Below are positions 39,777 to 63,995 of a DNA stretch of 64,000 nucleotides, one piece after another. Below the pieces are notes generated by a model. The model did no database searches and was not told the origin of the DNA. It saw only the letters and a program-made list of their open reading frames with translations. Origin of the DNA: Endocalyx cinctus (lineage: Eukaryota > Ascomycota > Sordariomycetes > Amphisphaeriales > Apiosporaceae); NCBI GenBank assembly GCA_001600455.1, contig BCKC01000012.1, positions 1 through 64,000 on the forward strand. Reading direction: 5' to 3'. The stretch's first letter is position 1, and every line of letters starts with the position of its first letter. Position numbers and translations under genes: made by a program.

Positions 39777-40954
39777 ATGATGACAACTAGTATGGGACCG
39801 GCCGGGTTTCATCCCGGCATGCAACAACACCCGGGCGTACATCCCGGGCATCCTATGGGAGCCCCCGGTATGGCTCATAATCCTAGCCAGCCTGGTACGC
39901 AACCTGGCATGCCGCCTCAGATGGCCGCACATATGGCCGTCTCGGGTCCCGGTGGCCAGGTCAATCCCGCTGCCATGATGGGCGGGATGCCTCCTGGCGC
40001 CGGTGGACCGAATGCCCACGCGATGCAGCATTTAAACCCTCAAATGTTCCAACAACACCAAGCTCAACAATTCAGTAAGCGAAGCCCTGATCTATCCTTC
40101 TTTCGCGAAGAGCCACGCTAATCACTTATTTCACGTCTCCCCGATAGTGCCACAAAACATGATGGCCATGCAGCAGCAGCAGCGTATGTTAGCGCAACAG
40201 AGGCAGGCCCTAATGCAGCAGCAGATATACGGTGGCGGTATGCCCATGAATATTCCGAATTTGACGCCAGCGCAATTTCAGGCCATGAGGCAAAACAATG
40301 CCATGCGAGTTGGTATACCCCCGCATCTCCAACAAGCACACCTCGCTCAGCAGCAAGGTCAGCACCAGGGTCCCGGAGGGCCACAACACGCCCAAGTATG
40401 TACTTCAAAGCTATACCTCCGTTGCTAGGCTTTATGACGTGCCTGCGTAATATCATGACCAGCTAACCCTTTCTCCTTCTAGCAACTACTAGCTCAACAA
40501 CTCGCGATGCAACAGCACCAGGCACAGCAGGCGGCCGCGAACAACGCCATGCATCAAGGCAACCAACCGAACCACGGACAAATGACCCCACAACAACTAC
40601 AGACCTTGCAACAACAGGCTCAGATGCAATCGATGGGCCAACAAGTACCACAACAACCAAATCCGAATCAGCAACAGCCCCAACCCCAACCACAGCCACA
40701 AAGTCAGCCTCAGCAGGCTCAGGGACCACAGGGTCAACCTCAAGGCCAGCAAGCCCCACCTAGCACACAAGGACCTCAACGTACACCAACGCCTGCTACC
40801 ACTCAACCAGGTCGCTCGCAGAGCCAAGGACCGAGCCCGGCGCAACCAAGCCAGCCGCAACACCCACCAGGGCAAGGTCAGCAGCCTCAAAACCAGCAAC
40901 AGAATCAGTCTCAACAACCCATACCACAGATGATTCAGGCTGCTCAGCAACAGT

Positions 40955-40987
<33 letters not shown>

Positions 40988-40995
40988 AGCATCAA

Positions 40996-41040
<45 letters not shown>

Positions 41041-41067
41041 CAACAACAGCAGCATCAGCAGCAACAA

Positions 41068-41121
<54 letters not shown>

Positions 41122-42558
41122 CAACAGCAGCAGCAGCAACAGCAGCCGCAGCCGCAGCAGCAACAGATTCCGACTAGTTTGCAGCAGATGCAGGCAATGC
41201 ATCAGGCGAAGCAGAACGGGGCGATGAAGGGTCACTGCTTATTGAAGTTGATGCAATTCTCCGAGCACCTAAGTGGCTTTCCGGTTAGTTTCCACCTCAA
41301 AATGTGTAGATATATGCGAGTTTATCTTCTAACCTAGGACTTTGGGAATAGGGTAACACCAAGTCGAACGATGATTTGGCTTATTGGCAGAATTTCGTGA
41401 ACGAGTTCTTCTCTCCTCGCGGCGTCTTCCGATTGTCGCTCTTCGTCACTGATGCCGCAGATTCCGACGAGGAACACGCCGGAGCAGACAAGCACTATGA
41501 GATAGTTCAGCCTGCGCTGGCCCGATATTTTCACGCCCATTTCAAGAGTGGTATCAAACAAATCCAGTTGATATTCGAGAAAGGTACCGTTGACAAGCCG
41601 CTACCTAACGGTTGCCATTTCGTTGAGAATACGAAAGCCAGTATGATATATTGGCTCGAATCTAGTCACGTAAGTTTATTTTAGTACGTAAATACGTCCC
41701 GCCAGATCTTGTTCTAATCATAGCTATACGCAGGTCATTGCCTCGGGAAATTTCCGAGCACAGTTCGACAGCGAGCAAAAGCTCGAACTGATGGAGTTTA
41801 TCACAACGAGTTACGAGGAGTACATGTCGAGGGCAAAATTCATCGACGCCGCCAGGCCTTCTCACACGTGGATCAAGGAATGGAAGAAAATAAACGGCTT
41901 GGACGGCATGGGATCGCCCGAAATGAGTAAAAAGGGGAAGAAATTATTGAAGACGCCCCAGTCTCATCCACCCGACATCAATCTACCCGAAGGCGCCTTC
42001 AAGCCGAAAACCGGCACAACCGCCGAGGTTTTCCAGTTTCTTGAGATCGTTGAAGTCATGGGACAGATGAGCCCGTTATTCAGCTACTACAATGCACACC
42101 CGAATCTGTCGCCCTACGAGGCGCTAAATCAATACGTAGCTCAGAATATTGTCAACGCGCCCCAGCAAGGAATGGTGAACGGTCATCAGCAAGGTAACAT
42201 GATGCCAAATCCGAGGACACCGAGCTTTAGTCAGTTCCCGATGAGCCATTCGCCGGCGACTCAACACCTGCAGCTCCCCAACTCACCCCACATGGGTAGC
42301 CCTGCCCAAGGAGTTATGCAGGCACCTGGTATGCAACTCCAGCAGAGCCAGCAAGGCACAAGCTCGAGCGGCCCAAGCGCGAACACGAGTCCTGCGAGCA
42401 ACAAACGGCGTCGACCGTCGACGGTTAAGGCGGAAGAAGAGAGCGGTGCGCCTACTCCTGCGAGTATGGGTGGTCCTCAGGTCAACGGTGTGACAATGGC
42501 GAATAAAAAGCCTCCCACGCCCCAAATGAGAAAGAGGCAGAAGGGTAATCCAGCCTAA
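39777..42558 (+). CDS. LIM-domain-binding (LDB/PtaB-like) transcriptional co-regulator
   Basis: An adaptor that in fungi partners LisH/Flo8-type factors to control adhesion, development and conidiation (PtaB in Aspergillus). Five exons, 39777-40074, 40148-40395, 40483-41283, 41352-41669 and 41734-42558, join in frame to 829 aa. The N-terminus is rich in Met, Gln, Pro and Gly. A nearly pure glutamine tract spans about residues 339-410 (nt 40951-41165), encoded by mixed CAG/CAA. The LDB domain begins near residue 430: HCLLKLMQFSEHLSGF, LAYWQNFVNEFFSPRGVFRL, PALARYFHAHFKSGIKQIQL and ASMIYWLESSHVIASGNFRA. The C-terminus has a nuclear-localisation-type NKRRRPS and ends MRKRQKGNPA. All introns have GT/AG ends with donors GTAAGC, GTATGT, GTTAGT and GTAAGT. 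Domain assignment is strong; the specific role is by analogy. Confidence 0.93.
40951..41165 (+). repeat. CAG/CAA repeat coding a long polyglutamine tract
   Basis: About 70 consecutive codons that are almost all Gln, with single His interruptions and a closing QPQPQ. Mixed CAG and CAA partly stabilise it, but several pure CAG runs remain. Confidence 0.95.
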
Positions 42559-61736: not shown

Positions 61737-63995
61737 TCAACGGATGACATCGCCTTCTTTATCGATCCCCTCACCCATCTCCAGAATATCACTTCCGGCC
61801 AAAACCCCGCTCCCCAGCGTCGTCGCTTTCCTTCCCGCCATCCAGACCTCGTGAAACTTGACGCTTTCGTCGCTGCTCGCCACCACGATGCACCCTTCCT
61901 CCGCCGTCCTGCTCTTCAGCCTCTCCTTCGTGCGGTAGATGTCGCTCGGCCCTCCGGGATACGCGATCGCGTACAGGGCCCGATGCTCCCCGCCCTCCCA
62001 AGGTATCGCCGCCACCTGTCTGCATTCGGGCCAGCTGAACACGGCGATCCGGTAAGGATGGTCCGGCTGAGGGTACCCGAACGTCGCCGCTATCTCCCGC
62101 CTCGTCGTGCTCCAGATCAGAGACGTCACCTGCGCCGATACCGATATGGTGGCGAGTGCTGCTCCCGACGTCGTGTGATAGAAGTGTATACATTTGTCGT
62201 TAGACCCACCACCGGTCGCCACCAGACCTTCCCGCCACGGGCAGAAGGCTATAGCTTTAACGGCGGCTAAGTGACGCCAACGGTGTCTCTCGGTACCCGA
62301 AGGGTAGTTCTTTACAGGAGTTGCGTAGGGGGATGCAGAGGGTAGACCGGGTGACGGAGTCTCGGCCCCCGAGCTGAAGGGGGGAGACGGCGTGCTACTA
62401 CTACCTGCGGATGATTTTGGAGGTGATGGATAACCATCTATACCGTTATTCTCGGCCCAAGAAGCCGTGGACGGCGATACGGGAGTTCCGGGGAGATCCG
62501 TCGTGACAACGCTTCCTTGCTTCGGCGCAACTATCCAGGGGAGTCCCATTTTGCCCTTACTTCTGGCATCCTTGTTGTTTTTGGGAGGATCGAGTATCTG
62601 CTCCACGTTGAAGAGGCAGCACAGATTATCGTTTCCGCCTGTCGCAAACTGCGCTCCGTTCGATGACTAGGCTAACCCGCAGACCTGCTGCGAATGTACT
62701 TTGATACGGGCGAGCAAGCTCATGGCACCCGACCAACTCTGCCGAGTCACTTCCTAGGGCTCCGGCCACTCAACAGAATAGTAGTACAGGTCGCCTACCT
62801 CATCCGCCACCAGTAGGTCTTCTGTCTGCACGGGAACTCCGGGATTGGAAGGATTGAGAGAGGGTCGGATCGTAACCACAGGTCGCCAGGAAATACACGA
62901 CACCGGAGCAAGCTGCTGAGTTTCGAACCGGGGTAGCAAACTGTCAAAGAGGGACATCAAACTGAGGGTGCCATTTGACCGTCCAAATGCGAGGATCGAC
63001 TTCCCTCCTTGCGTCGAAGAGAATGCTATAGAGGTTAACCAGGAGCCATCTTTGACGCCGGCATTCAGTAAGGTCACCCCCAAAGATTCGGACCAACCAT
63101 ATAACAAATTGCCTAATCCGACAGCGAGGGTGCTGCAGTTCCTGGAGTAGGCCATTATAGAGCAGTAAAAGTCATCCCGAAGACCTGGTGCATCTAACAC
63201 TCTATAGATGAGTTAGAGTGGTACAGATGTGGTGAGCTGTATAGCTTGAACTTACTTGAACGGTGCATTAGGCAGTACACGATGTCCTTTTTCAATTTCT
63301 GTTATTGTGAGTATTAATTTATTTTTTTTATTTCATTAAAAAAAGACGCGAATTGAAGGATAAATATAACAAATGAACTTACGGGGAATATGGTGGTCGT
63401 TTTCCCATTCAGTTCCGGTCCAAGTGGTCTTCGTGATACGTAACGAAGGTCTGCGTCTATAGCTGATCCTGCACCGCGGGAAAGTGGAATATCCGTCGAA
63501 ATCTAAAACACGCTGCACACGATTCATTCCCAACGCCGAAGCAAGTCGACCTTCGTGCTTCTCCTGCTCTTCCTCGGATTTGGGTCTAGATTCAGAGAAA
63601 GATGTGATATAAAGGGGCGCGTTTGTCCCAGAACCCACCAAACGGCCACGACCGGCTTCCACCACCACCACGCCGCTAGGAGCGATTCCGCCGACGGACC
63701 ATACGGCTCCATTGCTAACCTGCCGGTCACCAGGTTGAGAATGTAAAGTCAAGACGGTGCGTAGCCTTGGGTCCCCACTGTCGGTAGACCGAGATGCCCG
63801 TCGAGCAGCGATAGCGGCCCGGTCAAAAGCAGAACGCGTAGGTGTATGGAAACAGAAAGCGTCGGTTGCAGCCTCATCGGTTCTTAGAAGTCTCTCGGTA
63901 GCGGATAGCTCGTGCGGCTGTTTGTTACCGCGGAAGCGATCTGATAACGGCGTACGAAATGGAACGAAGCGGTCAGGCAAGGTAATAATAGGCAT
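61737..63995 (-). CDS. AMA1: Meiosis-type APC/C activator (AMA1/Cdc20 family) with two in-frame TAG codons
   Basis: A WD40 adaptor that recruits substrates to the anaphase-promoting complex; AMA1 members act in meiosis and ascospore formation. Exons 63995-63383, 63298-63256 and 63201-61737 join in frame to 706 codons. The start Met at 63995 (AAAACATG context) is five bases from the window end. N-terminus: a C-box-like DRFVPFRTP, then KQPHELSATERLLRTDEAA. WD40 blades: LRDDFYCSIMAYSRNCSTLA, GLGNLLYGW, SWLTSIAFSS, APVSCISWRP, ATGGNDNLCCLFNVEQIL, AAVKAIAFCPWREGLVATGG and VTSLIWSTTRREIAATFGY. The frame ends GDVIR: an Ile-Arg tail, the conserved APC/C-docking end. Two TAG codons interrupt it, at 62754-62756 (codon 368) and 62667-62669 (codon 397); the second replaces the conserved Trp of GLAWS. 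Because both ends are conserved, I annotate it as a coding gene likely recoded by A-to-I editing, with pseudogene as the alternative. Confidence 0.85.

Follow-up and report, generated by a model that had tools for sequence, protein, structure and literature searches.

The stretch of 64,000 nucleotides analysed here (the window) carries on its minus strand an AMA1-type gene of 706 codons (61737..63995), named from its translation and its homologues, with two in-frame TAG codons ahead of the terminal TGA (61739-61737). The gene model comprises exon 1 with the N-terminal region (63383..63995), an 84-nt intron 1 (63299..63382, GTAAGT..TAACAG), exon 2 (63256..63298), a 54-nt intron 2 (63202..63255, GTAAGT..CTATAG) and exon 3 (61737..63201), which encodes a CDC20/Fizzy-type WD40 propeller (PF24807) and contains both TAG codons. 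Splice sites are clean, there is no frameshift, and the 704 sense codons are interrupted by neither TAA nor TGA; TAG at codons 368 and 397 are the only in-frame stops before the end. This agrees with the preliminary description, which had given three exons running from 63995 to 61737 on the minus strand and a frame of 706 codons open save for two TAG. In the alignment of relatives, the first stop (site 1, 62754..62756) occupies the tryptophan of PEPW-EVAR and the second (site 2, 62667..62669) the tryptophan of GLAWS. The C-box and the C-terminal Ile-Arg tail, described earlier as preserved, are both read in the translation: DRFVP at codons 8-12 (63960..63974) and a final IR at codons 705-706 (61740..61745), assigned by motif definition.

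The two parts of the protein match PF24807 separately, with E values of 2.1e-14 before the stops and 3.6e-34 after them; the bit score of each part lies below the curated 200, and an intact relative (P0001), which matches solved Slp1, Cdc20 and Cdh1, scores 198.8. Homologues include some named 'related to meiosis-specific APC/C activator protein AMA1'. Among the best 120 of 519 matches they are mostly from Sordariomycetes and Leotiomycetes, the closest being Xylariales at ~67% identity, which makes this the most likely order of the genome, and no Fusarium AMA1 is among the matches listed. The gene falls among Xylariales in a tree, with its nearest kin lacking firm support. No second AMA1 copy was found in the 44.76 Mb genome (15 contigs); two other Cdc20/Cdh1-family loci are present, with only 31-45% identity to AMA1 and no stops in their matches, and by our reading they look like CDC20 and CDH1. 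The CDC20/Fizzy propeller, the C-box with the Ile-Arg tail and the distinctness from these paralogues together point to membership of the AMA1 family.

Both stops lie on tryptophan positions of many relatives. Among the 120 best listed homologues of 519, the site 2 column holds W in 87, F in 31 and a gap in 2, bearing out the earlier placement of this stop at the W of GLAWS, and the site 1 column holds W in 70, a gap in 46 and other residues in 4. The share of random nonsense changes in the AMA1 coding sequence that are TGG>TAG is 0.065 to 0.20 per event under transition weights of 1-8, and 0.29 if only transitions are allowed; the coincidence of both stops with tryptophan positions is more than chance.

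An orthologue alignment had been proposed as a check on conservation of the stops, and it finds the site 1 stretch skipped in 46/64 Xylariomycetidae gene models and in 0/48 of the other named proteins, with taxon groups assigned by us from protein names. The remaining listed Xylariomycetidae have W (17) or D (1), the other named proteins have W (45) or Y, S and R (one each), and the 8 unnamed proteins all have W; the association of gap with group is strong (Fisher p 6e-17), in a sample of related proteins that are not independent. The 46 gaps have 9 different starts, most commonly residue 350 (18/46), and 30 end at residue 368 and 7 at 369. Codon 368 was what the gene callers had to drop, and the AG of TAG would give them an acceptor. 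By analogy with the phantom introns that the available text of PMC4817773 describes in PUK1 and a further 69 F. graminearum genes, the gaps in relatives are this same artefact, and we infer from these gaps in predicted proteins, not from the DNA letters of the relatives, that the site 1 TAG is common to many Xylariales. In a quick 69-row tree, built without the trait columns and with one Apiospora row unscored, the inferred TAG needs 7 changes versus a shuffled mean of 18.3 (0/500 as low), a count that comes from a tree with several long branches and cannot separate gain from loss.

When the 309 residues that follow site 2 were used as the query of another search, 120 proteins of 953 were listed, of which 17 start at residues 369-396 (three of them at residue 370), 98 at or before 360 and 5 later; starts after site 1 are support rather than proof, because some contigs are short metagenome pieces and start codons can be chosen for other reasons too. 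Annotated orthologues have false introns across site 1 only; at site 2 the relatives hint at nothing similar, apart from two gaps in 120. In thirteen AMA1 proteins of Sordariales/Coniochaetales the site 1 column reads W (12) or Y (1), without any hint of a stop. Two AMA1 proteins (P0201 and P0229) start right after site 1, one of them resembling Sordariales by eye; a stop at site 1 may extend beyond Xylariales. The predicted protein of Nemania sp. FL0031 (P0026) is without residues 394-417, which contain site 2, and may carry a stop of its own. Searches of viral contigs returned no AMA1-like DNA of fungal relatives, and one genome-contig locus, in a record titled Acidobacteria MAG, is by eye not AMA1.

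A second gene of this genome has a similar arrangement. It is a PUK1/STK-21-type NDR kinase (L038, G000:C9:1394001-1399000; contig C9 1397554 to 1394929, minus strand, with the start chosen by us) that has two in-frame TAG, one at codon 490 and one at codon 630, each on a conserved tryptophan position. The first is exonic, reads TAGTGG and lies in DWWSLG (D-TAG-W-S-L-G), a motif that we take to belong to kinase subdomain IX. Its column is a gap in 68/72 Xylariomycetidae, 5/19 other Sordariomycetes, 0/26 Leotiomycetes and 0/3 unnamed proteins among the 120 listed homologues, and the codon 630 column has W in 119/120 relatives listed and a gap in 1. The matches listed include AGC/NDR- and CBK1-named proteins, and the best match of an intact relative among solved structures is CBK1; the putative orthology to PUK1/STK-21 rests on names, motif and structure match rather than on a tree. 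According to the portions available of PMC4817773, the edited stops of PUK1 are a UAGUAG within kinase subdomain IX, and at the corresponding place in N. crassa NCU03242 (STK-21) a UAGUGG becomes UGGUGG by editing; NCU03242 appears in excerpts of PMC3591445 as an AGC/NDR kinase with CBK1 as its best yeast match. The kinase described here is like these two, in which an edited UAG at a conserved tryptophan was covered by a false intron in annotation, and it has the N. crassa pattern UAGUGG. Unlike F. graminearum PUK1, with its two tandem UAG, it has a distant second TAG (codon 630). The gaps at its first TAG therefore show the phantom-intron signature recovering an experimentally proven edited site, in a class with known editing.

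Local RNA signals differ between the two AMA1 sites. The A of site 1 is predicted in a hairpin loop within the surrounding 61 nt (62725..62785) and at all flanks of 15-50 nt (P unpaired 0.99-1.00), as had been proposed by eye, with ordinary stability: the fold at +-30 nt has an MFE of -20.1, and 41/200 shuffles fold as well (z -0.77). Within the AMA1 coding sequence 173/449 As lie in hairpin loops, as do 7/20 of those in UAG in any frame. The CTGCG/CGCAG stem previously drawn around site 2 fares worse and is weak because at +-30 to +-50 nt the A lies in an interior loop or multiloop; a hairpin loop appears at +-20 nt alone, and at +-15 nt the A falls in a stem. Neither AMA1 stem is exceptional versus shuffles, and AMA1 site 1 is alone among the four TAG sites of both genes in having a hairpin loop, neither kinase site being so placed. 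The flank of site 1 has 6/6 of the preferred bases for editing given in the available part of PMC9600606, as 2/462 As of the coding sequence do, and that of site 2 has 4/6, its +3 base being a disfavoured one. Both sites have the U at -1 and the G at +1 stated previously, which are uninformative because every UAG has both by definition; with these two positions excluded, the mean flank score is 3.00/4 at the four TAG sites of AMA1 and the kinase, a small set (n=4), versus 1.65 for 26 TGG codons (p 0.0099).

Removal of the stop by a real or regulated intron, with the site 1 TAG itself as the 3' splice site, would account for the 46/64 Xylariomycetidae models that leave out this stretch, and in FgBUD14 the region of the stop is subject to splicing as well as editing, as far as the available text of PMC11156358 goes. 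In-frame GT..AG pairs do exist in AMA1, and two with a GTRNGY donor leave no stop. However, relatives use 9 different starts for mostly one end, only 5 of the 32 in-frame GT..AG pairs (40-160 nt) that span stop 1 leave no stop, and a CTRAY branch site occurs in 0/32 of these pairs. The commonest deletion would also cut a predicted propeller strand (residues 345-352 of P0001) that is conserved to Botrytis and Neurospora, in a structure model with local confidence of ~89-96 at that strand and an overall mean of 59. Splicing of this kind is improbable. The sequence after the stops is without decay: identity between AMA1 and its Neurospora counterpart is 0.66 before the stops (160 columns, residues 205-367) and 0.68 after them (248 columns), and intact Rosellinia versus Neurospora gives 0.64 before and 0.67 after the stop positions. 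A young pseudogene would be hard to reconcile with this absence of decay and with a site 1 stop that is inferred to be common across an order and that tracks the tree. Breakage by RIP (CpA to TpA on the template, turning TGG to TAG) draws on the fact that TGG>TAG is a RIP-type change and on the gene's RIP product index (0.91) and substrate index (0.93), which lie near commonly used thresholds, but the genome yielded no second AMA1 copy, the composite index (product minus substrate) is below zero (-0.02 for the gene, -0.08 downstream), and fifteen CAG and 4 CAA codons of AMA1, which are RIP-prone, are intact. A gene lost in either way is very unlikely.

Least likely is that ribosomal readthrough or an altered genetic code decodes UAG as tryptophan or some other residue. 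Four TAG at tryptophan positions in two genes would fit such recoding, yet stops occur in 0/150 WD40 matches of the genome, the CDC20/CDH1-like paralogues have no TAG in their matches, and exonic TAG was found among the matches inspected only in AMA1 and the kinase, relatives of which are edited in Fusarium. TAG also terminates 2 of the 12 ORFs read to their ends (of 16 ORFs of at least 200 aa), an argument of little weight, since ends of this kind may fall within introns. The window has 0 tRNA genes. A scan of the window for stops in coding-like frames gave 7 candidates, recovering AMA1 site 1 and missing site 2; the other 6 (5 translated, 1 read as DNA) were judged to be antisense or compositional artefacts, lying for the most part opposite genes of the other strand. 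The kinase scan gave 139 matches, 23 with stops, of which 10 were inspected (7/7 TAG-only, 2/5 TAA-only and 1/1 TGA-only): one has the exonic TAG of the PUK1-type gene, and the other nine appear by eye to have their stops within or next to introns, though L031, at the edge of its match, is unclear. Among 146 Fungal_trans matches, 6 are TAG-only, 7 TAA-only and 6 TGA-only, and there is therefore no TAG excess; all six TAG-only cases lie in or at introns by eye. The MFS scan found one match with 3 TAA among 9 scored of 579 candidates, and the DUF726 scan one TAG that is by eye an intron acceptor. The orthologues of rid and SPO22, which are edited in Fusarium, have no stop here in their family matches, which cover the domains only. 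Splicing, RIP, pseudogene formation and UAG reassignment all fit worse than editing.

The available parts of PMC11087585 and PMC11156358 describe A-to-I editing of mRNA in the sexual stage, carried out by FgTad2-FgTad3 together with Ame1, and the former calls editing a common feature of Sordariomycetes, so editing in Xylariales would be expected rather than surprising. Three genes of the DUF726 (Ame1) family are present in this genome. An Ame1 candidate among them (L037, G000:C4:3079800-3082900) has the S-D-H catalytic spacing of F. graminearum Ame1 and has GI where F. graminearum has MV (500-501), as placed by residue spacing with no Fusarium sequence aligned; excerpts of PMC11087585 give MV at these positions as the Sordariomycete residues. 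FgAMA1 (FGRRES_10728) is edited and has an important role in ascospore formation (PMC11156358, PMC4817773 and PMC11050156, each in part) and is, in the same portions of the first two, among 69 PUK1-like genes with a coding UAG edited to UGG in perithecia, in line with the earlier claim that the Fusarium AMA1 orthologue is regulated by editing. The likeness is at gene level; the gene described here has two TAG, 29 codons apart, and most likely comes from the order Xylariales. CHE1 of Fusarium likewise has a conserved premature UAG that gives truncated or falsely spliced models in relatives, but in the available text of PMC11169179 it is edited in vegetative hyphae and is an unrelated zinc-finger gene.

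The gene is thus very probably a working AMA1 orthologue in which both UAG are corrected to UGG (Trp) by A-to-I editing in perithecia. The stop-to-Trp editing put forward in the preliminary description is supported, at the level of sequence, by the phantom introns, the kinase, the absence of downstream decay and the site 1 flank. Both codons would presumably be edited by the tRNA deaminase Tad2-Tad3 together with Ame1, its cofactor in the sexual stage, which would allow the full AMA1 APC/C activator to be made, and unedited RNA would give a 367-residue protein with a partial WD40 propeller that is probably inactive. As translation of unedited RNA would halt after 367 residues, inside the propeller, sexual tissue would be the only place where a functional activator is made.

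The mechanism and AMA1 as a target are already known; the order-wide AMA1 stop and the stacked private stops appear to be new. No report of editing in Xylariales, of a shared AMA1 stop or of private second stops in both AMA1 and PUK1-type genes was found among the open-access papers listed, and the available portions of the two nearest papers, PMC11708053 and PMC10512317, do not mention them. Premature-stop correction would, by sequence evidence, extend to Xylariales, a large order. In many public Xylariales genomes the models of AMA1 and of PUK1-type genes are then likely to be wrong at these codons. AMA1 and the kinase, each with an apparently old shared UAG, both seem to have gained a second UAG at a conserved tryptophan, and we tentatively entertain, at somewhat less than even chances, a ratcheting up of dependence on editing. 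Once a protein needs editing, further TGG>TAG changes would be free in hyphae and might make the off state stricter. Stops would then pile up in some lineages, and several Xylaria, Nemania and Rosellinia may have returned to TGG, a direction that the tree does not show. The natural series of a shared stop, TGG in some lineages and private extra stops offers a means of weighing adaptive against ratchet explanations of dependence on editing.

Two further features of the window are recorded here. Positions 1-95 hold ~16 copies of CCTAAC; the start of the window is apparently a telomere, which would therefore place AMA1 ~62 kb from the chromosome end. At 40945-41166 lies a CAG repeat of 74 units (84% match) that codes for poly-Gln in a plus-strand ORF (40507-41337).
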